From: Flammeovirgaceae bacterium
GTDB lineage: Bacteria > Bacteroidota > Bacteroidia > Cytophagales > Cyclobacteriaceae
Length of the DNA stretch: 56,375 bases
Assembly (NCBI GenBank): GCA_012032815.1
Contig: JAAUQD010000005.1
Location: forward strand, 1-56,375
Direction of reading: 5' to 3'
Positions 10,432 to 56,375 of the stretch are shown here, in pieces (position 1 is the stretch's first letter; each line of letters begins with the position of its first letter). Made by a program: the position numbers and the translations under genes. The notes below the pieces were generated by a model. It searched no databases, was not told where the DNA came from, and was given only the letters and a program-made list of their open reading frames with translations.

Positions 10432-11471
10432 TTAAAACCATTTTCTGAATTTAAAATACCATAGCATGGCTAATACTATAGTAATCATGACGAGCCATGT
10501 CAGCGGGTATCCGTATTCGTAGCCAATTTCGGGCATGTATTAAAATTCATTCCATAAATTCCAACGATAAAAGTTAATGGAATGAAAATAGTTGAAATAA
10601 CCGTCAATACTTTGATTACCTCATTCATCCGGGTATTCAATGTATTGATGTGAATATCCATTAAACTTGAGGTCAGATCTTTATAGGTATCCATCGAGTC
10701 AATCAGATGAACCACATGATCATACACATCAGCAAAATAACGGATTGTGCTGGGTTGAATAAATCCGGATTCGTCTTTTATTATTTTACTTAATGCATCT
10801 CTTAATGGGTGCAATGCCTTGCGCAAATAAATAAGTTCTTTCTTTAGTCGTTGAATTTCATAAAACTCTTTTTCCGAAGGGTTGGTATAAATATCATCTT
10901 CAATTTGCTCAATCTGCTGGCCCACCGCATCCAATACCACGTAATAATTATCTACAATCACATCAATTAATCGATACAACAGGTAGTCAGCACTTTGCTT
11001 TCTTACTTTTCCCTGGTGTTGTCGAATTCGATCCCGGAAAGGATTGAAAAGATCGCCTTCTTTATCTTGAAATGATAACAGGTAATCCTTACCCAGGACA
11101 AAACTTATTTGTTCATATTCAATTTTGCTAAATTCTATCCGATACAACATTTTTAGAGTAAAAAAATAATATTCCTCGTACTCCTCAGCTTTGGGCTGAT
11201 GATCACTGGTGATATCATCCAGAAGAAGAGAATGCAATGAAAATTTTTTTGCTAAAGCTTTTATAATGGTGTGGTCATGCAACCCGTCAACATTTATCCA
11301 GTTTACCAGAACGGGATTTAGTTTTTCAAGGAGTTCTTTAATCGGGAGATTATTCACCATTTCATACTCATTGTCATTGTATTGAATGAGCTCAAGAATC
11401 ACAGCAGGTAACTGCTTTGGATTCAAAAATTGAGAAGTAGTTGATTTTTTGCGTGTCATTAAATCAGGCAT
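10432..11471 (-). CDS. corA: CorA-type magnesium/cobalt transporter, one frame break near the C-terminus
   Basis: The protein has a long cytoplasmic N-terminal domain and a first membrane segment (TVISTIFIPLTFIVGIYGMNF) with the GMN ion-selectivity motif near residue 313. The frame then goes wrong. If the T pair at 10540-10541 (plus strand) is read as three, the sequence continues KYMPEIGYEYGYPLTWLVMI through the second membrane segment and a basic end (WYFKFRKWF) to a TAA at 10432. That restores a normal CorA of about 346 residues. As printed it would lose the second membrane helix. It mediates Mg2+ uptake as a pentamer. I take this as a missing base in a homopolymer. Confidence 0.85.
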
Positions 11472-11666
11472 TGAGTTTACTATAACTTTTCAGTACAAAC
11501 CAGCCCAACGCTCATACTATATAAATACTTCCGCCAAGTAGTACAATGTTCGGGTACTGATTCACAAAATTACAGGCCGAAATTAACAAAAGCATCCATT
11601 GGTTTGCTATTCATTATAAAATTGAGTCCTCCTGATTTCTTAGGGGCAATTTGTATACTTGTAATT

Positions 11667-12641
11667 ATGTCGATGCGAATAGCTGATATCAAGGCTCCTG
11701 TGGCAAAAGAAATGGAGGAATTTGAAAATAAATTCAGAGACTCCATGAAAACACACGTGCTGCTTCTTGATAAGATTATGACGTATATCGTTAAGCGAAA
11801 GGGAAAGCAAATGAGGCCTCTTTTTGTTTTTCTTAGTGCGGGAACGTGTGGACAAATATCGGAGTCTACCTTCCGTGGGGCTTCACTCATTGAACTTTTA
11901 CATACCGCTACGCTGGTACATGATGATGTCGTTGATGATGCCAATTATCGCAGAGGATTTTTTTCCATTAATGCGTTATGGAAAACAAAATAGCAGTACT
12001 CGTAGGTGATTTTTTATTGAGCAGAGGATTGATTCTGTCTGTTGAGCATAAAGAATTTGACCTTTTGGGAATTGTGAGCAAAGCGGTAAAAGATATGAGT
12101 GAAGGAGAACTTCTTCAATTTGAAAAAGCAAGAAACCTGGACATTACCGAGGAGATATATTTCGAGATAATCCGGCAGAAGACAGCCTCACTGATTGCTT
12201 CCTGTTGTGCGGTTGGCGCCTGTTCGGTTGGTGCGGATGAAAGTCAGATCTATAAAATGAAAGTTTTTGGTGAGAAAGTAGGATTGGCGTTTCAAATTAA
12301 GGATGACCTCTTTGACTACAGTGAAGATGAGATTGGAAAGCCAGTAGGTATTGATATCAAAGAAAAAGAAAATGACGCTGCCATTGATTCACGCGCTCTC
12401 CAAAGCATCCTGGATGGATAAACGCAGGGTAATAAATATCATTAAGAATAATAGTAATGAGTCTGCGAAAGTGAAGGAGGTAATTGAATTTGTTAAAAAT
12501 TCTGGTGGAATTGCGTACGCGAAAGAAGTGATGATGAAATTCTATCAGGAGTCTCTAGACCTGCTCAATGAATTCAAAGAATCACCATACAAGAGTTCAC
12601 TCAGAGACCTTGTTCAGTTCACAATTGAACGAAAAAGTTAA
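11667..12641 (+). CDS. ispB: Polyprenyl (octaprenyl-type) diphosphate synthase, two frame breaks
   Basis: Three consecutive frames join into one trans-isoprenyl diphosphate synthase of about 325 residues. Start ATG 11667 (MSMRIADI). The first aspartate-rich motif is VHDDVVDDA; the second is IKDDLFDYSEDE. Break one lies in the A run 11982-11985: with one more A the text becomes NALWKNKIAVLVGDFLLSRG. Break two lies in the A run 12363-12367: with one A fewer it becomes DIKEKKMTLPLIHALSK, the family's usual wording. The enzyme makes the isoprenoid side chain of menaquinone. The chain length cannot be fixed from sequence. Both breaks are best explained as base-calling errors because the gene is normally essential. 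Confidence 0.9.
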
Positions 12642-12649
12642 GAGGTTAA

Positions 12650-13118
12650 TCAGCTCACTTTTTTGATTACTCGATCGCGTGCTGCTTCAAGAACCGCGTA
12701 ATTTTTCCACTTGGTAAATTCGCCCGTTTCCATTTTGACTTTTGCCGGTCCGGTATTGGTCGGTTGAAATTCGCCCTCATGACTCCACCACTCCAATGCA
12801 TTTTTTTTTGAAGTTTCTTTGTCGATATCAAAATAATCAATCACTGAATCTGAGACGATCCATGGATTTTCAATACTCGCGTATTTATCAAAAATCAAGC
12901 TGCGCATTTGGGTACCACTGGCCTGACTTTTAAAATGTGAAATGGTGTACGAGAGTGTATCCGGTTCGGACATAACCATATCCCAATATTTCTTTGATGC
13001 AATGATATCAGAGGTTGTCAGTAAATACCCATAACCATTTTCTAATGGCTCATTTGTGATAGCACAATGAGCTTTTGAATTCTTTTTTCTTTGAGAATAA
13101 ACGATTGAGGAGTGTCAT
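12650..13118 (-). CDS. Conserved hypothetical protein, one frame break
   Basis: The intact part (12979 down to 12650) reads DTLSYTISHFKSQASGTQMR ... ALEWWSHEGEFQPTNTGPAK. The same frame continues upstream as NSKAHCAITNEPLENGYGYL. If the A6 run (plus strand T 13083-13088) is one base shorter, it joins MTLLNRLFSKK starting at ATG 13118, giving about 155 residues. The upstream text in that frame (YLPPAEYLIVVNHAH) also looks coding, so the true start may be the ATG at 13170 with another one-base error. No family is recognised. There is no signal peptide or membrane segment. It is convergent with ispB, stops nine bases apart. Confidence 0.55.
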
Positions 13119-13221
13119 GTGAGCATGGTTTACAACTATTAGATACTCGGCAGGGGGTAAATAGTTGCATGAACAGGGAAATTTTTAACGATAACGCTCA
13201 TTTTGACTGAAAAAAAAGAAA

Positions 13222-14654
13222 TTACCTGGTGCCTTCTGAATTGGATTTCAGGAATTTTTCGTGTTTTTCGAAAAAATCACTGAGTTGGCCGACCGGTAAT
13301 TTTTTAGCAATAATCTTTTTTCGGTTGTCAATAATATAAATGGTGGGGGTTGTAGGTGCATCATACAGTTTACTGTATGGCCCAACATAACTACGAGGTC
13401 CGTTTACTGTTATCCACGGAGTGGCCATCTCCTTAATAAACGCTTTCATTTTCTGAAGTGAACTGTCTGTGCACACTGCATAGATCTCCATATTAAGTTT
13501 TGTCTTACTGGCATTATAAAATTCGACAAGCTTTGGGGTTTCAGCCCGGCAGTGACCGCAGTCCGGTGAGAAAAATAAATCATCGTGTATTTCCTGTTTA
13601 TATCATACAGTGCCTTGGGTTGAAGATCTTTGTCCTGCATGATCAAATTGGGTGCTTTGTTTCCGATCAAACTTAAGCGCATTCGGTCAGCGTTTTCTTT
13701 TAGGTTTTTCTTTACCGCTTCAGAGATCCAGAAATCCATTTCCTTGCTGGCAAAGTAGGTATCGAATAAATGAACATAAATCGCATCAAGTCCCATGATA
13801 TCATGGTTTTGATATTTCACAATGCACATCCATACCAAATACTTATAGCATTCCTTATTCTCTTTTACAGAATTAGCCAGTCGGTCTATTTCTCGCGACA
13901 ATGTATCCGGGTGTTGAATAAAAAGTTTGTCCAGATATTCACCGAGTTTCTCCTGGTATAGCGGCCGTGGTAAACGAATCATGGCGTCATCGGCCAGATT
14001 GAAATTGTCGAAGAAATGATTTCTATAGTAATGAAATTGAAATGCAGAATCGATTGATCCATTGGGTAAGACAGGAGGATCTAGCATTTTTACGGGCATG
14101 GTTGATTTTAAAACACGGGCTGTCATAGTTGACGGGTTCTTGTCAATTAAGTTTTGCTGATGGGCTACGACTTTTTCATTGATTAGATTGAAAGACTCCC
14201 GCGCATCTTTTTTTTGATCAGGGGTTAGAAGAGAATCGCGAAGGACCTTTATCAGGGGTTCAGCTTCCTTGTTTCTTTCAATATTGAAAAAAATATTTTC
14301 AAAGAACAGTTTATTATCAATGTCTCCCTTAACAACCATGTTGCGCACATAATCGGACTGGTTGGTTTCAAGTGTGAATTGCTGATCATCGCTAATGACA
14401 AATTCAAACATTCTGGTTTTGTTCAAAACAAGGAAGTAGACTCCATGAGGGAGTTTTTTAGGATTGTCGAATGTAAAAGCGCCCAGGTTATTCACCTGTG
14501 CTGTGTCCGTCAGTAAAGTGCTTTCACCATAATAAACACCTAAATAGGCTGTAGTATCTTTTAATCCCTTAATCTTAAAATCAATTTTATACCCCGTCTG
14601 GCTGAAAGAGAACGAACTGATCAATAGGGCAATTACTAAAAAGAAAAATCTCAT
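13222..14654 (-). CDS. Exported thiol-disulfide oxidoreductase (DUF4369 + thioredoxin fold), one frame break
   Basis: The protein starts with a signal peptide (MRFFFLVIALLISSFSFSQ) and a DUF4369-like beta domain (YKIDFKIKGLKDTTAYLGVY, ATG 14654). A long helical middle follows. The C-terminal AhpC/TSA-thioredoxin fold begins at NKAPNLIMQDKD. The frame breaks at the A5 run 13571-13575 (plus strand). With one more base the text reads MIYFFSPDCGHCRAETPKL, an active-site CGHC pair, and runs on through MEIYAVCTDSSL and APTTPTIYIIDN to 13222. Total about 477 residues. It is a periplasmic ResA/TlpA-like reductase of the large Bacteroidota type. As printed the active site would be lost. Confidence 0.85.
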
Positions 14655-14815: not shown

Positions 14816-15748
14816 TTGTCATTAGAAGTAAAAAATCTCACCAAAACGTTTGCCGGGCAAAAGGCTGTTGACAATATATCTTTTACTGTACAGCCCGGTG
14901 AGATTGTTGGCTTTCTTGGCCCCAATGGTGCTGGAAAGTCGACCACTATGAAAATCCTAACAACCTTTTTGCCGCCTACTGAAGGCAAGGTACAGGTGGG
15001 CGGATTTGATGTGGCGGACCAGTCGGTTCAGGTGAGAGAAATAATCGGTTATCTGCCTGAGCACAATCCGCTCTATCTCGAAATGTATGTAAAAGAGTAC
15101 TTAACCTTTATTGGCAAATTGTATGACGTAAAGGGCAACTTGCTTTTAAGCCGGGTTGATGAAATGATCAGACTGTGCGGATTAGGGGTTGAGCAGCATA
15201 AGAAATTGGAATCGCTATCAAAAGGGTATAGACAGCGTGTAGGATTAGCTCAGGCGCTTTTGCATGATCCACAGATTTTAATTTTGGATGAGCCTACTTC
15301 AGGTCTTGATCCAAATCAAATAGTGGAAATTCGTAAACTCATTAAGCAAGTTAGTCAGCATAAGACGGTGCTTTTTTCTACCCATATTATGCAGGAAGTT
15401 CAGACCTTATGTAGTCGGGTAATAATTATTCATAAAGGAAAAATTGTAGCCGACTGTCAGTTAGATGAGTTACTTAAGAGCAGAGGGATGAAGTCACTAT
15501 TTATAGAATTTGATCAGGAGGTTGATCTGTTAAAGATAAAAGCGTTACCCGGTGTGCAATCTATTGATCAATCCGGGCCGAACCAATTCAGAATATTCTC
15601 GGTAGAGAATGCGGATGTCCGATCAATTATGTTTGACTTTGTCAGGCAACAAAATATTTCATTAATGGAAATGCGTGTTGAAGAGTCATCACTGGAAGAA
15701 GTATTCAGAGAATTGACCACACCGGATGGCGAAAAGATAAGACTATGA
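14816..15748 (+). CDS. gldA: Gliding-motility ABC transporter ATPase GldA
   Basis: This 310-residue ABC ATPase has Walker A GPNGAGKST at residues 35-43, a signature LSKGYRQRVGLAQAL near 132, Walker B ILILDEPTSGLDPNQ near 150, and an H-loop FSTHIMQEV. The C-terminal part is the GldA-type regulatory domain. The start is a TTG at 14816; no ATG is available in frame. It overlaps gldF by four bases. GldA with GldF and GldG forms an ABC transporter needed for gliding in Flavobacterium; other Bacteroidota carry it without proof of the same role. The cargo is unknown. Confidence 0.9.
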   Translation: MSLEVKNLTKTFAGQKAVDNISFTVQPGEIVGFLGPNGAGKSTTMKILTTFLPPTEGKVQVGGFDVADQSVQVREIIGYLPEHNPLYLEMYVKEYLTFIGKLYDVKGNLLLSRVDEMIRLCGLGVEQHKKLESLSKGYRQRVGLAQALLHDPQILILDEPTSGLDPNQIVEIRKLIKQVSQHKTVLFSTHIMQEVQTLCSRVIIIHKGKIVADCQLDELLKSRGMKSLFIEFDQEVDLLKIKALPGVQSIDQSGPNQFRIFSVENADVRSIMFDFVRQQNISLMEMRVEESSLEEVFRELTTPDGEKIRL

Positions 15749-16474
15749 TTCACATTCTTTCACGTGAGTTTCGAAATTTTCTTGATTCCCTCATTGCCTA
15801 CATAATTATTGGTGTGTTCTTAACCGCTATGGGTTTGATTGTGTGGGTCTTTCCCGAAACCTCTGTGATGGAGTATGGTTATGCCGATCTTGACCCCCTG
15901 TTTTCATTGGGGCCTTATGTTTTGATTTTTTTAGTCCCGGCTATCACCATGCGGAGTTTTGCAGAAGAAAAAAAATTAGGAACTATTGAATTGCTATTAA
16001 CCAAACCGTTGCACGATTGGGAAATTATAATGGGTAAGTACCTGGCTGTGGTTGGATTGCTGATCTTCTCGCTTTCGCCAACACTATTATATTATTTTTC
16101 GATATATCAACTTGGGAGTCCCGTGGGCAACATTGACACGCCCGGTGTAATCGGTTCCTATATTGGCCTCTTCCTATTGGGGGCAACATTTTGTGCAGTT
16201 GGAATTTTTACTTCTTCCATAACATCAAATCAAATCATTGCTTTTATCGGAGCCACTTTTTTTTTGTTTCATTTTGTATTCAGGGTTTGATTCCCTGTCA
16301 ACCTTGTGGAGCGGGGGTAGAGGTATACTTTCTATCAAGCAAGCCGGAATTCTATATCATTATGAATCACTAAGCCGAGGATTAATCGATAGCCGGGATT
16401 TGATATACTTTTTTTCTTTGATTGGGATTTTTTTGCTGGCTACCAAAATTATAACCGGGAGCAGACGATGGTAA
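15745..16474 (+). CDS. gldF: GldF, ABC transporter permease, one frame break
   Basis: The permease begins FRNFLDSLIAYIIIGVFLTA and has six membrane segments, with MRSFAEEKKLGTIELLLTKP after the second, typical of GldF and related ABC-2 permeases. The frame breaks at a run of nine T (16257-16265). With eight, FIGATFF continues as CFILYSGFDSLSTLWSGGRG and IYFFSLIGIFLLATKIITG to the stop at 16472-16474, giving about 242 residues. The stop overlaps the gldG start (ATGGTAA). The gene sits in the order gldA-gldF-gldG, so the three share one transcript. Confidence 0.9.
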
Positions 16475-18149
16475 TACCGTACAGCAAAAAATCAGGAGAC
16501 CTTTTATTATTGGCTAACGGCCTGGTATTTTTTATCCTGCTCAACTTAGTAACCTCCAATTTATTTTTTCGGTGGGATTTAACGGAAGAAAACAGGTATA
16601 CACTCAATCAGCCCACCAAAGATTTGCTTAAAGATTTGCATGATGTTGTATACATAGAGGTTTACCTGGATGGTGATTTGAACGCGGGGTTTACCAGGCT
16701 TCAGAAATCCATTCGTGAAACACTGGAGGAGTTCAGGATCTATTCGGGCAACAAAGTAAAATTCCGGTTTGTCGATCCCTCCACTGCTACCGATCAAAGG
16801 GCTCGCAATGAATTCATGCGGAGTATCGTTGAAAAGGGAATTACTCCCATGAACATCATTGACACTAAAGATGGACAGCGAAGCGAAAAGGTTGTCTTTC
16901 CGGGAGCGTTGATATCTTATGGGGGGTTTGAAACGGGTGTGATGTTACTGAAAGGGAATCGATCGGAAACCAGCCAGGAAGTCCTAAATCAATCTATTGA
17001 AGGGATAGAATATGAACTGGCCAATGCAATTCATAAACTTACCAATACCGAAAGACCCCGTATAGGAATTGTTTATGGTCATGGTGAAATAGACAGTCTT
17101 GCGTTTGCAAGCTTCAAAAATTCTCTCATGCAGGCATATGATGTTTTCCGGATTCACCTTTCAGATCATCAACAGACTGATCATTATGATGCCATCCTCG
17201 TTACAAAACCCAAGAGTGCTTTTACTGAATCGGAAAAGTACAAGCTGGATCAATTTATTATGCGAGGAGGAAAAGTTTTATTTCTTCTCGACAGGCTTGA
17301 TGCGGAAATGGACAGTGCGTCAAGCAATAGTTACTTTGCTTTTCCATTTCAGCATAATCTTGAAGATCAGCTCTTTCGATATGGAGTACGCATGAATTAT
17401 GATCTGGTTCAGGATCGGGTTGCGGCTAAATATCCGATTGTAACGGGCCAGGTTGGCAATCAATCACAGCTCATGCAAATCGACTGGCCCTTTTTTCCTT
17501 TGATTACACAATTTGCTGATCACGCCATAACCAGGAATTTGGATGCAGTGATTTTGAAGTTTGCAAGTTCATTAGATACGGTAAAAGCAGTAGGCATAAC
17601 CAAGACTCCTCTGTTCTTTACATCCCCTTATTCAAAAAAATAGGGGCGCCTGTACGGGTTGCTGTTGAGGATTTGCGTAATCAACCAAGCCCTGAATCAT
17701 TCAATCAGGGTAGAATTCCCTTATCGTATCTTCTGGAAGGTGAATTTACTTCCCTGTATAAAAATAGGATTGTACCAAAAGATGCAGATCAGAAAACCTT
17801 TGTTGATAAAAGTACGCCCACGAAAATAATTGTGGTTGCTGACGGGGATCTTGCGCGGAATGAAATTAATTCTAAAACAGGACAGCCTCAACAATTGGGA
17901 AACGACCCGATCACTGGGTACACTTTTGCAAATGAGGATTTGTTAATGAATATGGTAGCTTATCTGATCGATGAAGAAGGGTTAATTAAAATTCGAAATA
18001 AAGAGTTGATGATCAGGCCCCTGGACAAATCTAAGATTAAAGATCAGCGCCTTTTTTGGCAAACTGCAAATCTTACGGTTCCTATTGTACTGATATTAGT
18101 TTTTGGAATTGCGAGAAGTTACTGGAGAAAGAAAAAATATGGAAATTGA
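16468..18149 (+). CDS. gldG: GldG, periplasmic ABC auxiliary protein, one frame break
   Basis: The protein has an N-terminal membrane anchor (LLLLANGLVFFILLNLVTS) followed by FFRWDLTEENRYTLNQPTKD, the GldG opening. A large periplasmic GIFT-like domain comes next (IGIVYGHGEIDSL, GKVLFLLDRLD). It ends with a second membrane segment (LTVPIVLILVFGIA) and a basic tail. The frame breaks in the A7 run 17634-17640; with eight A the text reads SPYSKKIGAPVRVAVEDLRN. The repaired length is about 561 residues. GldG is required with GldF for gliding in Flavobacterium. The break falls in the middle of the conserved domain, so a natural split is unlikely. Confidence 0.9.
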
Positions 18150-19073
18150 AATGAACCAGCAAAAGAAGAATGGTTTTCTGATTATCTCCCTGCTTGTTTT
18201 AAGTGTGGCTACCGTTCTTGCCTTTTACTTTCAATGGGATGCTTCATCACCTTTAAGTCGTAAGATCGTATCACAAGAAGACATTCAGAAAATTGATCGC
18301 GTTGTTTTAGAGTCAACTAATGGGAAAATCGATCTCACTTTTGACGGAAGGAGGTGGAGGGTAAATAATAATTTTGATGCCGATAATCAAATGATTACAC
18401 TCCTCTTTGCAAGTCTTGAGTCGGTTGAGATTAAAAGAGCCGTAGCGATTTCGATTGCCGACTCAATTAAAATCAGATGAGACAATCGGGTATAAACGTG
18501 AGCTTGTATTCAGAAGGCGAAGTGATAACCAATTTTGTTGCGATTGGAAATCCCGGTAAAACCGAATCGTACATTATGGAAGTTGATGTACCCGAAGTGG
18601 TTGTGATTCCTGGCTATAGGGTTTATGTGAACTATGTTTTTGAATTACCTGAATATGCCTGGAAGCAAAAAAGGATTTTTGATTTTAATTGGAGAAATTT
18701 TAAATCCTTGCAGGTTTCATTTTCGGAAATGAATAATGACGGGTTTACTATAGAACTTGATGGAGGATATTTCGATATAACCGGATCAATAGAGACTGAC
18801 ACAACACGGTTAAATGATTTTTTGGATGCGGTTAGCCTGTTGGAGGCAGATGAAGCAGTATCCGAGCAGGTCTTGAATCCCGACCTGGCCCTAATGGATT
18901 TGACCGTGCAGGATATTTCGGGTCGCACACTTTACCTTCACGTGCAGAGAACAGATAATCCGCAGATTTTGATTGGTCATGATGGACGAGGGAATTTCTA
19001 TCGGTTTCGCAAAGTGAAGATTGATGCAATCAATCACCCAAAAAAATACTTTGAGCGGAATACGCAGAAGTAA
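18139..19073 (+). CDS. DUF4340 membrane-anchored protein, one frame break
   Basis: Start at ATG 18139 (or ATG 18151, MNQQKKNGF), overlapping the end of gldG. One N-terminal membrane segment (GFLIISLLVLSVATVLAFYF) anchors a periplasmic DUF4340 domain with the typical IDRVVLESTNGKIDLTFDGRRW opening. The frame breaks at the A run 18469-18472. With five A the text is SIKNQMRQSGINVSLYSEGE, and the C-terminal part follows (GNPGKTESYIMEVD, RIFDFNWRNFKSLQVSF). Total about 312 residues. DUF4340 proteins regularly follow GldG-like ABC auxiliary genes, so it is probably a partner of this transporter. Confidence 0.8.
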
Positions 19074-19177: not shown

Positions 19178-20303
19178 ATGAAGTTTATTGTTAACTCAAG
19201 CTACCTGCTGAAACAGCTTTCACAAATCAACGGGGTAATTACAACCAACCCTGTTGTTCCTATTCTTGAAAACTTCCTTTTTGAGATTGATAAAAATACG
19301 TTGACCGTTACAGCATCGGATTTGCAAACTTCAATGATTACTGAAATTACGATTGAATCAAAGGAGAAAGGGAATATTGCTGTCCCAGCCCGCATTTTGC
19401 TAGACACACTAAAAAATCTACCAGATCAGCCAGTTACTTTTTCCATTGACGACTCAACCTACAGCATCGAACTAAGTTCTGACAACGGGCGGTATAAACT
19501 GGCAGGTGAAAACGCTACCGACTTTCCTAAAGTCCCCAGTGTGTCCAATGATTTTTCGGCTATGGTTTCTTCAGATGTTCTGGCCCGGGCAGTGAACAAC
19601 ACGATTTTTGCAACGAGCAGCGATGAACTAAGACCTGCTATGACGGGTGTATATGTAAATCTGAGTGAGAAGAATGCCACTTTTGTTGCAACAGATGGAT
19701 GCACCGGCTTGTTCGGTATATTCGTACCGATGTAAAATCCGACAATGGAAATGCCATAATTATTCCTCGCAAGGCATTGAACCTCCTGAAAACAACACTT
19801 CCCACAGAGAATACTGATGTTAGTATTGACTTTAACATGTCAAATGCATTTTCAAGTTCAACAGTATAAAAATGATTTGTCGGCTTATCGATGAACGTTT
19901 TCCGGACTACGAAAATGTAATACCTTCCGGCAACAACATCAAAATGAGTATTAACCGCTCTGAGTTTTTAGGTTCACTGAAGAGGATTTCTATCTATGCT
20001 AACAAAACCACGCATCAGGTACGTTTGAAAATTACCGGTAGTGAATTACTGGTTTCTGCAGAAGATCTTGATTTCAGCAATGAAGCGAATGAACGATTGT
20101 CTTGCGAGCATGAAGGTAGTGATATTGAAATTGGTTTTAATGCCAAGTTTTTGATTGAGATGCTAACTAACATAGATACCGAGCAAGTAAAACTCACCAT
20201 GTCGGCACCCAATAAAGCAGGTGTGATCTTGCCTGCAGACAAGGATAAAGATGAAGATATTTTGATGCTGGTAATGCCGGTGATGTTAAACCAATACGTT
20301 TGA
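19178..20303 (+). CDS. dnaN: DNA polymerase III sliding clamp, two frame breaks
   Basis: The beta clamp (about 374 residues) starts MKFIVNSSYLLKQLSQING. Text is normal to FVATDG, then breaks near 19700: the expected HRLVRYIRTDVKSDNGNAI is present one frame over. This break is not in a base run; it needs two bases removed or one added. A second break is in the T4 run 19849-19852: with five T the text is NAFFKFNSIKMICRLIDERF. It then continues normally to PNKAGVILPAD and VMPVMLNQYV. The clamp tethers DNA polymerase. It follows DUF4340 by 104 bases. An essential protein with two breaks points strongly to sequence error. Confidence 0.9.
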
Positions 20304-40488: not shown

Positions 40489-40500
40489 ATGTGTTGATTC

Positions 40501-45894: not shown

Positions 45895-45910
45895 GAATTC
45901 AAATAAAAAT

Positions 45911-45942
45911 AAAATCCCGGCCTATGCAGCCGGGATTTAAAA
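45911..45942 (-). terminator. Terminator-like hairpin between rplY and pth
   Basis: AAATCCCGGC and GCCGGGATTT pair perfectly with a seven-base loop, followed on the minus strand by a T-rich tract. It may reduce read-through into pth. Confidence 0.75.
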
Positions 45943-45943
45943 A

Positions 45944-46669: not shown

Positions 46670-46697
46670 AAAGTGTATTTATTTAAGTTAAACATAT

Positions 46698-47626
46698 TTA
46701 CAAGCGAATGAACAATGAACTGATTGATTCGTGATCATGAATCTTACGAATGGCTTTCGCAAAAAGATCAGATACTGTAAGTACTTTAATTTTTTCGGTT
46801 TCCTGACGCAATGGTATGGTATCAGTAACCACGATTTCTTCAATAACAGAATTACTTATATTGTCGTAGGCTTTTCCGGATAGAACGGGATGTGTACAAA
46901 CAGCCCTGACCGAACTCGCGCCCTTTTCTTTAAGAAGCGCGGCTGCACGGCAAATCGTTCCTGCGGTATCTACAAGATCATCCACGAGTATAACGTCTTT
47001 GTTTTCAACCTCACCGATTAATCGCATTGATTCGATTTGGTTGGCCTCTTTACGATACTTATCACAAACAGCGAGCTCTGCATTAAAAAATTTAGCAAAA
47101 CTCCTCGCTCTCTTTATGCCACCAACATCCGGTGATGCGAACATGATGTTCTTTAAATTCAATGATTTCAGATAGGGAACAAAAATGTACGCTCCATCAA
47201 GGTGATCAACCGGGATATCAAAAATCCCTGAATTTGATCGGCATGCAAATCACAGGTAATGATCCTGGAAGCTCCTGCCGCTGAAATTAAATTGGCGAAT
47301 AGTTTTGCTGCTATGGAAACCCTGGGGCGATCTTTTCTATCCTGGCGGGCATATCCAAAGTATGGGATAATTACATTGACCGTTTGTGCGCTTGCTCTTT
47401 TTGCACCATCGATCATTAACAATAACTCCAGAAAATTATCGGCAGGCGCAAACGTGGACTGAACGATGAAAACGTCATGCCCGCGAACTGATTCTTTAAG
47501 GAAGGGGGACATTTCGCCATCACTGAACTGCTGGTAGTCAACAGCACCCAGAATATCTCCATATGAGTCGGCAATCTTCTCAGCTAAGTAAGTCGATGCT
47601 CTACCAGAAAAAATTTTGACAGCCAT
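46698..47626 (-). CDS. prs: Ribose-phosphate pyrophosphokinase, one frame break
   Basis: ATG 47626 (MAVKIFSGRASTYLAEKIAD). The first half carries NVIIPYFGYARQDRKDRPRV and ITCDLHADQIQGF. The frame breaks at the A5 run 47221-47225 (plus strand). With six the text is QGFFDIPVDHLDGAYIFVPY, and the second half carries KDVILVDDLVDTAGTICRAA, the PRPP-binding motif, then ends at 46698. About 310 residues. It makes PRPP for nucleotides. As written the enzyme would be split in two. It follows tRNA-Gln, and rplY and pth follow it. Confidence 0.93.
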
Positions 47627-47664
47627 TTTTTAAAACTAAGCCCCTGTTGTATCGTGGATATTTG

Positions 47665-47737
47665 TTGCCCGACCAGGGCTCGAACCTGGACTTTTCTGAA
47701 TCAAAATCAGACGTGTTGCCAATTACACCATCGGGCA
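47665..47737 (-). tRNA. tRNA-Gln (TTG anticodon)
   Basis: On the minus strand the sequence folds as a cloverleaf: acceptor TGCCCGA/TCGGGCA with an A discriminator, D arm, anticodon stem TCTGA/TCAGA around loop TTTTGAT giving anticodon TTG for CAA codons, and T arm CCAGG/CCTGG with GTTCGAG loop. CCA is not encoded. It sits 38 bases upstream of prs, which is a frequent Bacteroidota order. Confidence 0.93.
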
Positions 47738-47764
47738 AGTCAAAACCCCCTTATTTTGGGTGTG

Positions 47765-47772
47765 CAAAGGTA
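47765..47772 (-). promoter_or_regulatory. Possible -7 element for tRNA-Gln / prs (TACCTTTG)
   Basis: On the minus strand TACCTTTG matches TAnnTTTG and lies about 28 bases before the tRNA. A TTG is present only 11 bases further up, shorter than usual, so the -33 part is weak. Confidence 0.4.
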
Positions 47773-47831
47773 GACGAAATATTCAAAAATTAAACCCTGA
47801 AATAGAATTAAAAACCACCTCTGGTAGCGAA

Positions 47832-48407
47832 TTACTCGATGTCTGTTTCGGGAGTCGGTGGCTTGCCTTCAATAAATCCATCGGCCCAAAAACGGTATTT
47901 GTCCAGGATAGAAATCACCGCATTTCGCAGGTGCCGCTGATTGTTGAAGTCAATTGAGCCATATAGGGTAGTAGCATAACCTTGCCAAATCGACCGGTTT
48001 TGTCTTCGATCATAAAACTGAATTAAAAGTGTCCCGGTTTTCAGGTTATATTTTTGAGGGTTATAGTCTACTTTATCCGATTGGAATTTAACCCATTCCT
48101 CAATTTCGGGTTGATTATAGCCGTTAAACACAAGGCTATCGTAAAACATCTTAAAGCCAATTATTAAATGTGGCCGGTTGTCGGTCTGACGATACCCAAG
48201 AAATTTCATTCTGGAGATAATGGAACTTTCGATCAAACCATTAATCATGCTGCTATCATTTGATCCCATCGGGCGCATAATTTCAAACGACCTGTATTTC
48301 TTGAAATTTCCATGATAACTGTAATCGTACTCTACAGGAAGCTCTTTATACCCAAGACAGGAGGATAAAAGAATTAAGAGCGTTCCAAATAAGATCCACT
48401 TACTCAT
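47832..48407 (-). CDS. DUF4136 lipoprotein
   Basis: This 191-residue lipoprotein has lipobox LLSSC (MSKWILFGTLLILLSSC) and a DUF4136-like body (VEYDYSYHGNFKKYRSFEIM, RPHLIIGFKMFYDSL, GTLLIQFYDRRQNRSIWQGY). The family is found in outer-membrane lipoproteins of unknown role. It is intact, with an acidic end. It lies alone between the tRNA and purL, both transcribed the same way, separated by 94 and 112 bases. Confidence 0.8.
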   Translation of the reverse strand: MSKWILFGTLLILLSSCLGYKELPVEYDYSYHGNFKKYRSFEIMRPMGSNDSSMINGLIESSIISRMKFLGYRQTDNRPHLIIGFKMFYDSLVFNGYNQPEIEEWVKFQSDKVDYNPQKYNLKTGTLLIQFYDRRQNRSIWQGYATTLYGSIDFNNQRHLRNAVISILDKYRFWADGFIEGKPPTPETDIE

Positions 48408-48519
48408 AGTCTTTGGATTACTTCTGAAATGTAATCCAATTTGGCTGGATTACAATCAATTATTGTTTAAACAAACACTCGAAACGAGCAATTGGTTTCA
48501 AGTCACGGAAATTGGGTTA

Positions 48520-51500
48520 CTATTTTTTTGTTTTCATCCAGCTCAACGCACTTGCAAACGCGGCTATCCATGGTGAAACTTCATGCTTGTAATGATTTGG
48601 GTAATACGGCCAATTCCACGGAAATAAAGACCGTTCTAAATGAGGCATAATGGCTAAATGCCGGCCATCTGAAGAACACAATGCAGCAACAGAGTTGTCG
48701 GACCCGTTTGGATTTCCAGGGTATTCTGAATAGCTATAAGAAGCAGCCACTTCATAGGATCCGTCAGGTGGTAAAATAAATCGACCTTCACCATGTGCAA
48801 CCCAAACGCCAAGACGTGTGCCAATCAGGGATTGAAACATAATCGCCTTTGTTTGAGGAATGGAAATAGTAATAAACGAAGATTCAAATTTTCCAGATTC
48901 ATTGTGATGCATTTTAGGATGATTTGATGAATCCGGATATACAAGACCCAACTCCATCATGAGTTGACAACCATTACAACACCAAGACTTAATGTGTCGG
49001 ATCGTTTATAAAAATTGTCTAGTGCAGTCTTGGCTTTTTCATTATACTTAAATGCGCCTGCCCATCCTTTTGCCGACCCGAGTACATCAGAATTAGAAAA
49101 TCCCCCTACGAAAACAATCATTTGAACGTCCGATAAATTTTCCCTTCCGGAAATCAGGTCAGTCATGTGAATGTCTTTAACATCCATTCCGGCCAGGTAG
49201 AGTGAGTACGCCATTTCCCGATCACCGTTAACACCTTTTTCTCTGATGATGGCCGCTTTAACTCCTGAAGATTTTCTAACCGGGTTTATATTGAATTGCT
49301 CCAACGTACCTTTAAATGTCTTTGGAAATTCGAATTTTAATTCCTGGGATTTGTAGTTTTTGAAGCGTTGTGCTGCGGCCTTTTCTGAACGCTGGATTTG
49401 GTCGAGGAAGAAAGAAGTTGTAAACCAGGAATCACGAATTTTATCAATGTCCAGGTTGAGGGTCTGATTGAGATGTTCAATTTGGAGAGTTCTGTTTAAT
49501 GTAACTTGACCAAGTTCAAAACATCTAACGCCCTTACCAATAAGTGAAGAAAGCACCTCTGAATTAGTTAATTGGACCAGGACACCGGGGTTTTCATTAA
49601 AAAGAATTTTTACCAGGTCATCTCCCAGACCATTGAGCTTCACATTGAGGCCAAAGTCCGGTTGAGGAAAGCACATTTCCAATATAGCGGTTACTAAACC
49701 ACCCGACCCTATATCATGTCCTGACAGGATTTGATTTTTCTTAATCAAACTTTGAATTCCATCAAAACAGGATTTTAAGTATTGGGCTTCAACATCCGGA
49801 GTAGTTGATCCAGCCTTATTCAAAATTTGAGCGAAAGAACTGCCACCCAACTCCTTTGGATAATTCGAAAAGTCAATAAAAAAAAGTTTTGATCCTTCAA
49901 TGGGCTTCAGTGATGGCGAAATTGTTTTTGTAATATCCGCGACTTCGGCTACCGCTGACACGATGACTGTACCGGGAGAAATTACAGATTTCTTATCCGG
50001 ATATTTTTGAGTCATACTCAATGAATCTTTACCGGTAGGGATGTTGATGCCCAGTTGAATGGCAAACGTGCTGATTGCTTCAACCGCGTTGTATAATCGG
50101 GCATCTTCACCCGTATTTTTACACGGCCACATCCAATTTGCACTTAACGAAACTCCTTTTAGTCCATGGGTTAAATCTGCCCACACCAAATTAGTAAGTG
50201 CTTCAGCTACAGCTAGCCGGCTTCCGGCTGCAGGATTTATAAGTGCAACTCCCGGAGCATGGCCAATGGAGGTAGCCACACCTTTATTGCTTTGAAAATC
50301 CAGGGCCATAACTGCCACATTATTCAACGGCAATTGAATGGGTCCGCAGGTTTGCTGAGTTGCTACTTTACCGGTCACCGACCGATCTACCTTATTAGTT
50401 AACCAGTCCTTGCACGCAACGGCTTCCAGCTGAAGCAAAAGTTCAAGGTATTGTTCAATATTTTCGGAGGAATATTTTAGCTCAGAGAAATTTGATTCTT
50501 CTGCCTGATCAAAAATCACAGTCCTGGGCGAGGACCCAAACAAGTGCTTGACTGATAGATCAACAGGTTTTTGAGAATGATCTTCCCGGGTGAAAATTAA
50601 TCGCTGATCTCCGGAAGCTTCACCGATTTCATAAAAGGGAGCCCGTTCGCGTTCAGAAACTTTTTTAAGCAATTCTACATCAGACTGTCCAATAGAAAGG
50701 CCCATCCTTTCTTGAGATTCGTTGCTGATAATCTCTTTATCAGAAAGGGTAGGGTCTCCGATGGGTAATTTGTCGATATGAATTGTTCCTCCTGTCTCTT
50801 CAAGAAGTTCCGACAGGCAATTCAAATGTCCACCCGCTCCATGATCGTGAATTGAGACAATGGGGTTTTCATTTGCTTCGACCATCGCCCGAATTGCATT
50901 CATTACTCTTTTTTGCATTTCAGGATTTGATCGCTGAATAGCATTTAATTCGATCGTGTTGTCAAATTCTCCTGTCGCTACGGATGATACCGCTCCGCCC
51001 CCCAAACCAATGCGGTAATTGTCGCCTCCAAGTAAAACGATTTTATCCCCTTTTTGAAGATGACCTTTCTGACTGTCCTTCAATTTCCCAAATCCAACGC
51101 CACCCGCAAGCATTATCACCTTATCATAACCTAAGGCTTTTTCATTCTCAAAATGTTCATAGGTTAGTATGCTGCCACAGATTAAAGGTTGACCAAACTT
51201 GTTGCCGAAATCTGAAGCGCCATCAGAAGCCTTAATCAAAATTTCTTCTGGTGATTGATATAGCCATTTTCGTTCTGAGAACTTTTTTTCCCAATCCCTG
51301 CCTCCGTTTAATCTTGGATACGATGTCATGTATACTGCAGTTCCAGCCAGAGGAAGCGATCCCTTTCCACCCGCCAACCGATCTCTGATTTCACCGCCTG
51401 AACCTGTTGCTGCTCCGTTGAACGGTTCTACCGTGGTGGGAAAATTGTGAGTCTCCGCTTTTAGTGATATAACCGAATCGATATCAGAGACTTCAAAAAA

Positions 51501-52189
51501 ATCAGCAATATCCTGTCGCCCGGGTGCAAATTGTTTTATAGATGGCCCTTGTACAAAGGCCACATTGTCTTTGTATGCAGAAACTAAAAAATTAGGATTC
51601 TCTTTAGCTGTTTTTTTAATTAGCTCAAAAAGTGAAGCTTCTTTCTCGTTTCCATTAATTACGAAAGTTCCATTAAAAATTTTATGCCTGCAATGTTCAG
51701 AGTTCACCTGTGAAAATCCGAATACTTCACTATCAGTAAGAGGTCTTCCAAGCTCTGCACTGACTTCAGTCAGATAAGCCACCTCTTCGCTGCTTAAAGC
51801 AAGGCCATGTGTTTGATTGTATTCGCTAATATTTCTTACTTCTAAAATGGGTTGAGGAGCTCGATCAATAGTGAAAATATCCTGGCCTAACTCAGGGTAA
51901 AGTACCTGAAGCATTTTATCGTAAGCGGGATTTTTCTCTGGGGATATTTCAAATTCCTCAATGCGGAAAATATCTGAAATTCCCATGGTTTGAGCAATCT
52001 CCACTGCGTTGGTAGCCCATGGAGTAATCATTTCTTTTCGCGGTCCTATGAAATTGCCTTTTACAGTTTCTTCTTGTAGAAGTTTCGCACCATTGAACAG
52101 CCAAACCAATTTTTCAATATCCCTTTTTGTAAAGGGTGAGACGTCCCAACAACAAAAAGCATGGGGTCTTGACGAAAAAATAGAATCAT
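48520..52189 (-). CDS. purL: Phosphoribosylformylglycinamidine synthase (single-chain), two frame breaks
   Basis: A single-chain FGAM synthase of about 1,220 residues. I put the start at ATG 52189 (MILFFRQDPMLFVVGTSHP). Break one is at the A3 run 52131-52133 (plus strand): with one more base the text is SHPFTKRDIEKLVWLFNGAK. The ATP-grasp-like core is visible (SEVFGFSQVNSEHCRHKIFN, LKAETHNFPTTVEPFNGAAT, CGPIQLPLNN). Break two is at the A pair 48978-48979: with one more base the text is SLGVCNGCQLMMELGLVYPD, restoring the glutaminase cysteine. It then ends with SDGRHLAIMPHLERSLFPWN. It performs the fourth step of purine synthesis. As written, the glutaminase end would be separate. Confidence 0.93.
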
Positions 52190-52236
52190 CCGGAAGGAGA
52201 AAATTAGAGATTCAAAACTACACGGATTTGCTTTAA

Positions 52237-53057
52237 TTATACTTTTTTCCCGAGATAATTTCCGATTCGGCCAAGACTTTGTTCTATGAGTGTAGTATGA
52301 CCAACATCCAATGTATCATGCCTGAATCGCTGGAGCCGCTTTGTCAGTCGATTCATAAAATGTGGAGGGATCATTCGGTCGTATTTTCCAGTTATACAAA
52401 GTACTTCCGTTTTATTCTGGTTCAGAGTTTTGGCTAACAGATTAACATCGAAGGATAGTGATCGAAAAACTACCCACGAATGGTAAACCTGGTTTCGTTT
52501 TGATTCGGTGTTCATTTGAGACTCCACAAACCGTAAAAGACTATTATCTATCAAACCTATTTTATGGATAGCTTTTGAAACGCGATGGAATCTGTTGGGG
52601 TGCAAAACCATGCTTTTGAATAATTTTCTGACCAACACTGAAGAGGTTGCCAATGTGTACCAAAAATTTGTTTGAATCCCGTCAGATGCCAACAATATGA
52701 TGTGATCTACTTTTTTGGTGAAGCCATATAAGAAGCCAAAACAAATTTGCCTCCCATACTAAAACCAATCAGACTGTATTTTTCAATTTGGGTTTGTGCC
52801 AAAAACTCTACCCATAGGTTATTCCAGAACTCTTTTTTTAGTAGCTGTTCTCCTTTATTCCATTTGCTTTCGCCATGAAAGAAAATATCAAAACTATAGA
52901 TTGTGTAATCAGCAGGGACAAAGCCCACCAATTTCTCAAAAGTTTGATGGTTTTGTCCAAACCCATGGAAAACCAGAATAGTCTTAGGGCCATGACCGGC
53001 TTTTACGTAATGAAGTTGACAGGCGTCATATGTAAGGAAGTTGTGAGAAACCTGCAT
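52237..53057 (-). CDS. Alpha/beta hydrolase, one frame break
   Basis: ATG 53057 (MQVSHNFLTYDACQLHYVKA). The oxyanion segment is VFHGFGQNHQTFEKLV and the nucleophile serine is in SLIGFSMGGKFVLASY. The frame breaks at the run of six at 52711-52716. With seven the text reads ASPKKVDHIILLASDGIQTN and continues to the acid and histidine (CITGKYDRMIPPHFMN, LDVGHTTLIEQS) at the C-terminus. About 273 residues. The substrate is unknown. It is divergent from the sigma-factor gene at 53146. Confidence 0.85.
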
Positions 53058-53145
53058 GCTTGCAAAGATGCATGGATGGTTAGTATTGAAAAAATTTTAT
53101 TTTGTTATGCAATAAAAAGAATCCTTCATCCGACTTACTTGTTGT

Positions 53146-53727
53146 ATGGGGCGGGCCTTTGAATTATCAGCTGTGGACAAATTAAAACAAACTACGTTTC
53201 TTAATGAGAAAGACGGCCTATTAGCTTTTATACAGCGCAGGGTTTCATCACTGGAAGAAGCTGAGGATATACTTCAGGATGTATTTTATCAGTTTGTCAG
53301 TGGTTTTGAAACGATTGAATCGCTCGACAAGATTACGTCCTGGCTATACCGTGTAGCGAGAAATAAGATTATTGATCGGTATCGCTATAACGCTATTCGC
53401 CCAAAGCGGTTCAATCCGGCTAAATCGGGAGATGATGAGCCCCTTATGTTAGAAGATATTCTGCCTGACCTGGACAACACGCCTGAATCTGCTTTTTTGA
53501 AGGAAGCGATTTGGGATGAAATAATGGGAGCACTTGATGAACTACCAGGCGAACAACGGGAAATATTTATCCAACATGAGCTGGAAGAAAAGAGTTTTCG
53601 TGAAATCGCTGAAGAATCAGGAGTATCAATTAATACGCTGTTGTCGAGGAAGAGATACGCAGTAATTGCTATGCGACATCGACTGCAGGTGTTTTACAAT
53701 GAGGTTTTTAATTCTAAAAATATATAG
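53146..53727 (+). CDS. ECF-type RNA polymerase sigma factor
   Basis: The 193-residue protein has region 2 (RRVSSLEEAEDILQDVFYQF, SWLYRVARNKIIDRYRYNAI) and region 4 (DELPGEQREIFIQHELEEKS, FREIAEESGVSINTLLSRKR). No anti-sigma factor of a known type follows, but a small membrane protein starts two bases after its stop, a likely partner. The start is the ATG 53146. A GTG at codon 10 is possible. Confidence 0.9.
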   Translation: MGRAFELSAVDKLKQTTFLNEKDGLLAFIQRRVSSLEEAEDILQDVFYQFVSGFETIESLDKITSWLYRVARNKIIDRYRYNAIRPKRFNPAKSGDDEPLMLEDILPDLDNTPESAFLKEAIWDEIMGALDELPGEQREIFIQHELEEKSFREIAEESGVSINTLLSRKRYAVIAMRHRLQVFYNEVFNSKNI

Positions 53728-53729
53728 TT

Positions 53730-54083
53730 ATGAAAAGAGGATGGTGGATTTTGAAATTTTCTGTGATCGCGACTATTGTGTTGCTGGGCATTACATTAAT
53801 TACACAATATTTATGGAATTGGTTAATTCCAGACTTATTTGAAGGCCCGATTTTATCATTTTGGCAAACCGCAGGCCTTCTAATTCTTGTCAAAATATTG
53901 ACTTGGGGATTCGGAGGTAGGCGCTACAGATCAGGTGGATGGGGGAAATGGAGACAGGGTTGGAAAGATAAGTGGAATGCCATGAGCGAAGAAGAGCGTG
54001 AGAAATTTAGAGTAAGAATGAAAGAAAAATGTGGCTGGAATTATACAAGTCAGCCCCACAAAGTCACGGATACAAACAGTTAG
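53730..54083 (+). CDS. Small membrane protein, sigma-factor neighbour
   Basis: The 117-residue protein has two membrane segments (WWILKFSVIATIVLLGITLI and ILSFWQTAGLLILVKILTWG), then a Gly/Arg/Trp-rich basic segment (GGRRYRSGGWGKWRQGWKDK) and a helical, charged end (MSEEEREKFRVRMKEKCGW). It starts two bases after the sigma factor and shares its transcript. I do not recognise a family. A membrane-bound regulator or partner of the sigma factor would fit its place, but this is inference. Confidence 0.65.
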   Translation: MKRGWWILKFSVIATIVLLGITLITQYLWNWLIPDLFEGPILSFWQTAGLLILVKILTWGFGGRRYRSGGWGKWRQGWKDKWNAMSEEEREKFRVRMKEKCGWNYTSQPHKVTDTNS

Positions 54084-54139
54084 AGAGCCATTTTAACTTG
54101 AGGTAAACAATAGTTGACGTATTGCGTTTAAGATATTGA

Positions 54140-54183
54140 AAAACTAAGGAAACTTTGGAAAATATTAAAGTTTCCTTAGTTTT
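54140..54183. promoter_or_regulatory. Perfect 17-base-arm inverted repeat, likely TetR operator
   Basis: AAAACTAAGGAAACTTT (54140-54156) is the exact reverse complement of AAAGTTTCCTTAGTTTT (54167-54183), with a 10-base spacer. The spacer is AT-rich. The arms overlap both promoter elements of the tetR gene (TTG 54155-54157, TAGTTTTG 54177-54184), so binding would block RNA polymerase. I infer that the TetR protein encoded at 54192 autoregulates here. It could also act as a terminator for the preceding small membrane gene, as it is followed by a short T run. Confidence 0.75.
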
Positions 54184-54184
54184 G
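54155..54184 (+). promoter_or_regulatory. Bacteroidota-type promoter for the tetR operon (TTG - 19 - TAGTTTTG)
   Basis: TTG at 54155-54157 and TAGTTTTG at 54177-54184 are separated by 19 bases, the best match to the group's consensus in this window. The -7 ends eight bases before the ATG at 54192, so the leader is very short. Both elements are inside the inverted repeat at 54140-54183. Confidence 0.7.
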
Positions 54185-54191
54185 CGACCCC

Positions 54192-54833
54192 ATGGAAAAT
54201 ATCGATCTAAAAGAACGCATTACTAAGGGAGCTGAAGAACTGTTTATGAAATACGGCATTCGCAGTGTTTCTATGGATGACATTTCGCATCGTCTTTCAG
54301 TTTCTAAAAAAACAATTTATCAGTATTTCAGAGACAAAGATGAAGTTGTAAGTGTCGTTACCAGACTTCACCTTGAACAGGAGGAAGCCGAAATGGAACA
54401 AATTTTCACAAGTTCCAGAAATGTAATTGAGGAATTAGTAAATATATCGATTTGCTTGCGCAAAAATGTTAGTCAGATTAATCCTTCTCTTCTTTTGGAT
54501 TTAAGAAAGTACCATCCTGACGGATGGAGTCGATGGGTTGATTTTAAAAATAACTATATCAGAAAGGCCGTAATTCGGAATGTCGAAAACGGAATTAAAG
54601 AAGGGTACTTCAGACCGGAACTAAATGTTGAAATCGTGGCTACAATTCGGCTTGAGCATGTTCAAATGGGATTTGATGATCAGCTTTTCCCAAAAGAGCG
54701 GTTTACGTTAGCCGAAGTGCATACTCAACTGTTTGATCTATTTGCCTACGGCCTTCTTACTGAGAAAGGAAGAAATGCATTTGAGCAGTACAAGAAGAAA
54801 TTAGAAAAAGAAAATAAAGTAAATCAAGAATGA
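54192..54833 (+). CDS. TetR/AcrR-family transcriptional regulator
   Basis: The 213-residue protein has the N-terminal helix-turn-helix (RITKGAEELFMKYGIRSVSM, then DDISHRLSVSKKTIYQYFRD) of the family. The ligand domain has no recognisable specificity. Its stop overlaps the ATG of the TolC-like gene as ATGA, so the regulator and the efflux genes are one operon. It probably senses a toxic compound or membrane stress and binds the palindrome upstream. Confidence 0.92.
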   Translation: MENIDLKERITKGAEELFMKYGIRSVSMDDISHRLSVSKKTIYQYFRDKDEVVSVVTRLHLEQEEAEMEQIFTSSRNVIEELVNISICLRKNVSQINPSLLLDLRKYHPDGWSRWVDFKNNYIRKAVIRNVENGIKEGYFRPELNVEIVATIRLEHVQMGFDDQLFPKERFTLAEVHTQLFDLFAYGLLTEKGRNAFEQYKKKLEKENKVNQE

Positions 54834-56228
54834 ATAGAGTAGTTACCCTTACCGTTTTGGTTGCCGCGTTAATTTTTTGCATTGCCATTGCAGGCGCAAA
54901 AAAAGATGAGTCTGCAGGAGTGTATTGATTATACTCTTGCCAATAATCTTCAGGTAAAAAATAAAGAACTGGAATATCATTCCTCCAAAGCAAAGGTGGG
55001 TGAGTTTCTTTCATTGGGATATCCGCAGATTTCCGGAAATGTTGATTTTGCTTACAATTATATTATTCCCACCACGTTCATTCAGGATTTTGTCAGCCCG
55101 GCAGTCTATGGAGTTTTGTTTACAGAAAATGTGATTCCATCGAAGCCTTTACCTCCGGCCGAATTTTTCCCAGTGCAGTTTGGAACGAAGTACACCGGAA
55201 GGATGACGCTTGATTTTACCCAAATGGTTTTTGATGGATCATTCTTTGTTGGCTTGAAAGCATCGCAAACATACACCGAGCTTTCAAGAAAAGATCTGAT
55301 TAAGTCTAAGACGGATGCCGTCACCGCCATAAAAAAAGCCTATTACTCAGTAATGGTAAATAAAGAACGCTTGGCCCTGGTAGAAAAAAATTTAGGGCGG
55401 TTAGATAGTTTATTACGAGATACAAAGTCCATGTACGAAAATGGATTTGTTGAAAAAATTGATGTTAACAGAATTCAGGTTCAGTTCAACAACATTAAAG
55501 TGGCCTTGCAGAACGCTGCCTTTGGACTTAAAGTAAGCATGGATCTGTTAAAATTTCAGATGGGAATGTCCATTGAAGAAAAACTGGATGTTTCAGATGA
55601 TTTGAATACGTTGAAGTTTCAGGTGCTGGCTGATGATTTTAAGGAAGGTTTTGAATACGAAGATCGGATTGAATACAGTGTGTTGATGACCAATCATGAT
55701 TTGGTTGGAATCGATATTAAGAATACCAAAGTTCAATACATGCCTAAAATTGATTTGTACGGAAACTACGGAGGAAGTTATGGTACCAGTGGATTCAACA
55801 ATCTCTTTGCATTTGGGGAGAACTGGTTTGAATTAGGAACCTTAGGAGTGCGCATGAGTATTCCAATATTTGATGGGATGCAAAAGAGCTATATGATCAA
55901 ACAAAAGAAATTTAAACTCGAGCAGGTAGAGAACAGCATGGAATTGCTTAAAAATCAAATTGATATGGAAAAAGAGCAAGCCAGCTCAACTTTTAATACA
56001 AGTCTTGAAAATTTGAGAGCCCAACAAGAAAATATGGCATTAGCCGAGGAAGTTTATCGTGTAACCAAGATCAAATATGAACAGGGGGTGGGTGCAAATA
56101 TTGAGGTAATTGATGCAGATGCCTCTTATAAAGAAGCCCAAACTAATTACTACAGCGCCTTATACGATGCGCTCATTGCAACGGTAGATATGGAAAAAGC
56201 TTACGGAAAATTAGGCATCACAGAATAA
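54830..56228 (+). CDS. TolC-family outer-membrane efflux protein, one frame break
   Basis: ATG 54830 begins a signal peptide (MNRVVTLTVLVAALIFCIAI). The frame breaks at the A7 run 54898-54904; with six A it reads AGAKKMSLQECIDYTLANNL, the normal mature start of an outer-membrane efflux protein. The body has the long helical repeats (AIKKAYYSVMVNKERLALVE, TSLENLRAQQENMALAEEVY) and ends with KIKYEQGVGANIEVIDADAS. About 465 residues. It forms the outer channel of a tripartite efflux pump. The stop is at 56226-56228. Confidence 0.88.
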
Positions 56229-56246
56229 ATTGAAATAACAATAACT

Positions 56247-56375
56247 ATGAAACATACTTTTTTACTCGCACTTATTACAGGAATACTTGGTATATCATGT
56301 TCATCAACTGAAGTGTCTGATGTAGATGTGAAAAATCTGAACTTGAGAATGCACGAGCACAAATGGATGAACTTA
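56247..56375 (+). CDS. Membrane fusion protein of the efflux pump, 3' end outside window, one frame break
   Basis: ATG 56247 opens a lipoprotein signal (MKHTFLLALITGILGISC, lipid cysteine at residue 18). After VSDVDVK the text is off-frame. If the A5 run 56331-56335 has one more base it reads DVKKSELENARAQMDEL, a typical start of the helical hairpin of RND membrane fusion proteins. It follows the TolC-like gene by 18 bases. The rest of the gene and the inner pump lie beyond the window. Confidence 0.65.
   Translation, partial: MKHTFLLALITGILGISCSSTEVSDVDVKNLNLRMHEHKWMNL

Follow-up and report, generated by a model that had tools for sequence, protein, structure and literature searches.

The single-step frame breaks that interrupt many genes on contig JAAUQD010000005.1 of a Flammeovirgaceae bacterium are almost certainly consensus errors in the draft assembly of an uncultured Cytophagales-like bacterium, and not damage to its genes. 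The window analysed here is that entire contig (C111; 56,375 bases, 60% A+T), which belongs to a genome assembly of 202 contigs totalling 2,782,616 bases, 84.8% complete with 3.62% contamination. That the breaks exist in the printed sequence is confirmed; they are not a feature of the organism. This explanation had been offered in a preliminary description of the DNA, and it is borne out by contigs of the same assembly that contradict each other, by the spread of breaks over the assembly, by the open frames of relatives, by the absence of nonsense codons and by a bias toward runs of identical bases. The same description spoke of an uncorrected assembly; no more than "insufficiently corrected" can be said. 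The closest named purL records are mostly from Cytophagales, the best being that of Pseudochryseolinea flava at 71%, and the others are from Cyclobacteriaceae, Flammeovirgaceae or Bacteroidetes.

Matching places in relatives were located by DNA searches of the window against 12 other genomes of the genus, and 7,166 open reading frames (ORFs), taken from these stretches and from the named records, served as references whose matches cover 48,054 of the 56,375 bases. Reference proteins that matched above 45 bits numbered 1,407, and 821 of them (at most 10 per window bin) were aligned protein-to-DNA with frame steps permitted; such a local alignment may stop short of a stop codon. Sixty event clusters emerged from this frame-aware alignment, of which 26 were taken further and localised, and 23 were backed by at least four reference proteins and at least four genomes. 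Every one of the 23 resolves as a single step, the only kind of step that the aligner offers. Since several references shared a genome through overlapping loci, each genome was counted once in a recount, after which all 23 sites stand. The spanning genomes are unanimous at 22 sites, and at the remaining one, in the gene at 12650, five of seven agree.

The preliminary description had listed 27 breaks in 23 genes (28 in its last field). Twenty-two of its 27 are in the set backed by at least four genomes, and a further one, in the fusion-protein gene, is upheld by an overlapping contig. The other four are thinly supported: the break in the aldolase-like gene by one of one genome, that in the surface protein likewise by one of one and with its place uncertain, that in the tolC-like gene by one of two, and that in the tiny lipoprotein by the lengths and tails of relatives' proteins. 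A break in gpsA at 31255 to 31264 was absent from the earlier list and is found against four of four genomes. In gpsA and in the TerB-like gene the break lies within the first residues, and the support leans on short N-terminal stretches.

Most of the 34 dropped clusters were mirror events opposite a better-scoring gene or had only one or two references. An event at 45904 (one reference) precedes a start codon, and one at 22297, backed by two of five references that come from a single genome, sits across from two intact genes on the other strand.

The breaks are spread over the assembly and are specific to it. We counted a break where at least three genomes spanned the place and at least 80% of them agreed, each sequence being aligned to references from other genomes; the controls were 23 stretches of six relatives, and the other contigs were 61 of 201, several in part, 47 of them with any reference match. 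By this rule there are 20 breaks in 45,487 covered bases of the window, 12 in 56,849 bases of the other contigs and none in 233,545 bases of the relatives. Under the loosest rule (two genomes, 60%) the window has 22 in 45,764 bases, the gldF/gldG junction being among them, the other contigs have 21 in 91,626 and the relatives 6 in 290,856. Since breaks occur in other contigs and, by the strict rule, in none of the relatives, the effect is a property of the assembly that reaches beyond the window, and the limits of 10432 to 56375 once given to it do not hold. The window may be richer in breaks: its density is roughly double that in the other contigs sampled, with P = 0.05 when three genomes are required and P = 0.01 when four are. 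No breaks were found in positions 1 to 10432, where only 4,911 bases are covered and the deficit is not significant (P = 0.09); the first 5.2 kb are almost without homology coverage, although genes there match Pfam families. The median open frame, which requires no gene model, is 312 codons for the window and 334 for 40 of the other contigs, as against 409 to 577 in stretches of eight relatives, a comparison confounded by the higher G+C of the relatives in all or nearly all cases.

Overlapping contig ends as an internal test

The assembly can be set against itself where its contigs overlap. We compared 62 contigs, whole or in part (765,792 bases; the contigs examined span 3 to 68 kb), end to end and found nine pairs whose overlapping ends are at least 85% identical; seven of these were counted. 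Contigs C2, C47 and C179 were chosen because earlier searches pointed to them, and the other pairs came from contigs picked by number. The overlap of C150 with C32 was left out (56 columns, one substitution, no indel), as was that of the end of C47 with the start of C145, which at 89% identity, with 38 substitutions and one indel in 345 columns, probably joins a diverged relative or a paralogue. In its own right, the latter overlap suggests that a second, diverged strain or a paralogue is present in the bin.

The seven counted overlaps comprise 1,404 columns, with 15 substitutions and eight single-base insertions or deletions (indels). Seven of the eight indels are genic and fall in five overlaps, and the eighth is intergenic. 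When the version of a whole overlap was swapped for its counterpart, the open frame through the site measured 321 versus 167 codons, 766 versus 244, 285 versus 207, 345 versus 287 and 531 versus 242 to 288. In all five overlaps where an indel is coding, one of the two printed versions thus holds the longer open frame. Independent copies of the same DNA in the one assembly disagree on base counts.

Both ends of the window take part in such overlaps. The right end, positions 56161 to 56375, overlaps C179 in one of the five just described, and the two differ in the length of two runs and in one silent base; the gene of the membrane fusion protein, broken in the window, is open in C179, and at this one site the base count printed for the window is directly contradicted within the assembly itself. 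The left end, positions 1 to 222, overlaps C2 with 220 of 222 bases identical, two silent substitutions and no indel. A comparison of positions 36500 to 56375 with the window's own genome found an overlap at the right end only.

A mixture of strains, some of which carry these frameshifts, would also let overlapping contigs differ, and the substitutions in the overlaps do look strain-like. Eleven of the 15 are silent, and the overlaps therefore hold real strain variation under selection. The indels, unlike the substitutions, are not filtered by selection: seven of eight are genic and shorten the frame of one version, when real variation would show even stronger selection against indels. Moreover, dnaN, prs and purL are genes in which a frameshift would be lethal or costly. 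We consider it extremely unlikely that strain variation accounts for the breaks.

Base runs, decay and rescue

If the breaks are consensus errors, the building of a consensus from reads would have lost or gained single bases, often in runs and more at runs of four to five than of two to three, and the printed frame would slip while the real gene stays intact. Shallow read coverage, or a sequencing method prone to errors in runs, may be the cause. We compared the 23 sites with randomly placed intervals matched to them in length, drawn from all of 10432 to 56300, genic or not. A run of at least four bases is touched by 13 of the 23 sites, versus 4.6 +/- 1.9 expected; with the interval widened by two bases the figures are 16 of 23 and 6.4 +/- 2.1. 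Without the widening, a run of at least five is touched by 8 of 23, versus 1.7 expected. Per 1,000 runs there are 1.0, 1.5, 7.2 and 28 breaks at lengths two, three, four and five. Longer runs have 0 breaks in 75, 1 in 31, 0 in 9 and 1 in 2 at lengths six, seven, eight and nine, too few to judge. The enrichment thus rises with run length over the set as a whole, although it does not extend to 10 of the 23 sites taken singly. Net losses (16 of 23) exceed net gains (7 of 23), close to the earlier estimate of about 17 missing and nine extra bases, and the runs concerned are most often of A or T (19 of 23 sites).

The wording that nearly all breaks lie in homopolymer runs proves overstated: the enrichment at runs of four or more is real, but 10 of the 23 sites lie only at runs of two to three. 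To say that all but one are at runs of two to nine is uninformative, because intervals placed at random touch runs of two to three as well. The argument from runs to artefact is accordingly weaker than it had been made, runs of two to three being ubiquitous; what speaks for an artefact is that breaks are commoner at runs of four and five than of two and three.

Decay of the genes themselves, in a lineage that is losing them through frameshift mutations, would put breaks into the printed sequence just as we find them, and it might appear to agree with an assembly smaller than those of 12 congeneric genomes (2.78 Mb versus 2.9 to 4.8 Mb), although 84.8% completeness explains part of the small size. 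The aligned codons speak otherwise. For 45 gene regions, the best alignments contain no in-frame stop among 15,478 aligned codons, a count that larger lesions fall outside. The dnaN gene is broken twice, all three of its frame pieces are well conserved (93, 90 and 86% identical to a relative) and no other copy was found in this incomplete assembly. Where contigs overlap, moreover, one of them shows an open version of a gene that is broken in the other, as C179 does for the fusion protein. Neither nonsense codons nor a significant loss of conservation marks these genes as pseudogenes, and real decay has next to no probability as their explanation.

It is conceivable that the genes are truly interrupted in the DNA but still yield their products, through transcriptional slippage at runs or programmed ribosomal frameshifting. 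Bacteria are known to rescue genes by slippage at runs, and four sites (gldF, gldG, tolC and the surface protein) touch or may touch runs of seven to nine. The runs are nevertheless no longer than five at 21 of the 23 sites and no longer than three at 10, and the relatives' stretches have open frames there; a signal shared among the sites was sought by eye only. Two contigs of the same genome also differ in their DNA at such places, a difference that rescue acting on RNA leaves unexplained. Such rescue is vanishingly unlikely. A mixed account would keep most breaks as errors and treat a few at the longest runs, in gldF, gldG, the surface protein and tolC, as real variable runs that switch gliding, surface and efflux genes on and off in the population; we regard this as very unlikely.

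Several points weigh against consensus error as we have argued it. Three of the eight indels come from one more diverged overlap, that of C100 with C110 (95%), without which six overlaps remain with five indels, four of them coding, and seven of eight substitutions silent. In one overlap the indels were tested jointly and not singly, and only one of the 27 sites in the preliminary description falls in an overlap. Contig ends usually have low depth, and the overlaps may therefore overstate the error rate inside contigs. Among the 23 sites, 10 touch only runs of three or fewer (7 with the two-base widening), and one dnaN site is equally compatible with a two-base change, a gain. Finally, the broken genes are somewhat less conserved than the intact ones, with a median identity to relatives of 65% in broken regions (n = 19) and 73% in intact ones (n = 26), a difference that is not significant (P = 0.11).

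Individual sites and neighbouring features

Gene names come mostly from Pfam and NCBIfam scans. The fusion protein, the ispB-like gene, the TerB-like gene and the gene at 12650 go by the names given in the preliminary description; "thioredoxin-fold" is likewise its term. Genome counts below give the spanning genomes that agree on the break.

The first site of the window is in corA (PF01544) at 10540 to 10541 on the reverse strand (6/6 genomes). The ispB-like gene, on the forward strand, is broken twice, at 11982 to 11986 and at 12362 to 12371 (7/7 genomes each). Two breaks follow on the reverse strand: the gene at 12650, which has no Pfam match, is interrupted close to its start at 13067 to 13073 (5/7), and the thioredoxin-fold gene, which Pfam places in DUF4369/DUF5106, at 13573 to 13574 (7/7). 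The forward-strand gliding genes are broken at 16255 to 16264 in gldF, an ABC-2 permease (PF12679; 6/6), and at 17632 to 17642 in gldG, whose first fragment matches PF09822 as far as 195 of 288 (6/6). In this window gldF and gldG are separate and slightly overlapping (15745 to 18149), and the relatives' loci L139 and L150 have a single fused ORF of 806 and 837 residues. A candidate event at 16472 (2/2 references) was dropped as the gldF/gldG junction, the two genes being fused in two relatives.

The forward-strand DUF4340 gene, whose match to PF14238 is under the cut-off of that family, is broken at 18469 to 18476 (7/7). The two dnaN breaks, also on the forward strand, lie at 19697 to 19701, where no run longer than two bases is touched, and at 19849 to 19853 (6/6 each). 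On the reverse strand, the TerB-like gene, which has no Pfam match, is broken near its start at 25230 to 25233 (6/6), and pdxA at 25718 to 25725 (8/8), with fragments that match 3 to 175 and 190 to 286 of the 286 positions of PF04166. The break in rsmA at 26969 to 26970 (forward strand; 6/6) leaves a first fragment that matches PF00398 only up to 175 of 263. The "aldolase-like" gene, which resembles D-serine dehydratase and alanine racemase, is broken at 29337 to 29341 on the forward strand, and its second fragment contains PF14031 as well as the last part of PF01168. The gpsA gene (PF01210/PF07479), broken near its start, and the acyltransferase gene (PF01553), broken at 32703 to 32707 (7/7), are both on the reverse strand. 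The surface protein, with a T9SS type B sorting domain whose match to TIGR04131 is under its cut-off, appears to be broken in its signal peptide at 33491 to 33494 on the forward strand.

A break in the DCC1-like gene (PF04134) at 36614 to 36615 on the forward strand adjoins a T run (7/7). The folK gene is broken at 37850 to 37853 on the reverse strand, and PF01288 is covered to 84 of 116 (8/8). The two breaks in sppA, at 38291 to 38297 and 38676 to 38683, are on the forward strand (9/9 each), and PF01343 is matched in the downstream fragment. On the reverse strand, the tiny lipoprotein has a probable break in its tail within 40660 to 40838: the relatives' proteins have 41 to 47 residues, and the second frame ends like those of L033 and L032. 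This lipoprotein gene occurs as at least two similar side-by-side copies, each of about 41 to 45 residues, in L160 (about 13030 to 13209), L168 (about 6501 to 6939) and L157 (about 5695 to 6299). Nearby, a palindrome at 40445 to 40488 is flanked by A and T runs and is probably a two-way transcription terminator.

The remaining reverse-strand breaks lie in prs at 47220 to 47224, with PF13793 in the first fragment (10/10), in the C-terminal part of purL at 48979 to 48980 (NF003672; 10/10), in its N-terminal part at 52122 to 52126 (10/10), and in the alpha/beta hydrolase gene (PF00561) at 52723 to 52733 (14/14). The tolC-like outer-membrane efflux protein (PF02321) has a probable break in its signal peptide at 54896 to 54908 on the forward strand. 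A long palindrome at 54140 to 54183, directly 5' of a TetR-family gene (54192), resembles the DNA before the homologue in L032 and L034 and is probably the regulator's own operator; a candidate event at 54183 (2/2 references) was dropped because it lies inside this palindrome. Elsewhere in our material, locus L193 (G000:C112) carries three direct copies of about 100 bases, 89 to 95% alike, on one contig at 2798 to 4945.

Significance and known systems

Gene counts and pseudogene calls of this genome are affected, and its 84.8% completeness possibly is too. Findings in this genome that rest on truncated or split genes need checking first. The comparison of contig overlaps is a cheap internal test that requires no reads, in which silent substitutions mark strain variation and frame-breaking indels mark errors. 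The finding itself is ordinary; it serves to caution users of this genome and to illustrate that test on a small scale.

Assembly-made apparent pseudogenes are common in public bacterial genomes according to one survey (PMC11017572), which names the assembler, the platform and the coverage as likely causes and finds that broken genes cluster in particular assemblies. That survey counts pseudogenes over many genomes and reassembles them, whereas the evidence here is a contradiction between contigs of one assembly. A second parallel is a nanopore assembly described in the Kastor report (PMC12007338), in which errors amount to less than 0.05% of the genome and the indels are mainly false deletions, most of them after runs of four to five bases and most often in A or T. 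The window resembles it in its rate, with about one detected break per 2.3 kb (20 in 45,487 bases), which is near the "less than 0.05%" given there. It also resembles it in the excess of net losses over gains (16 versus 7), in the runs of four to five and in the preference for A/T runs (19 of 23 sites). The Kastor assembly differs in that it comes from an isolate whose reads are known and in that substitutions are part of its figure, whereas the present genome is in 202 contigs and only genic, frame-breaking indels are visible in it.

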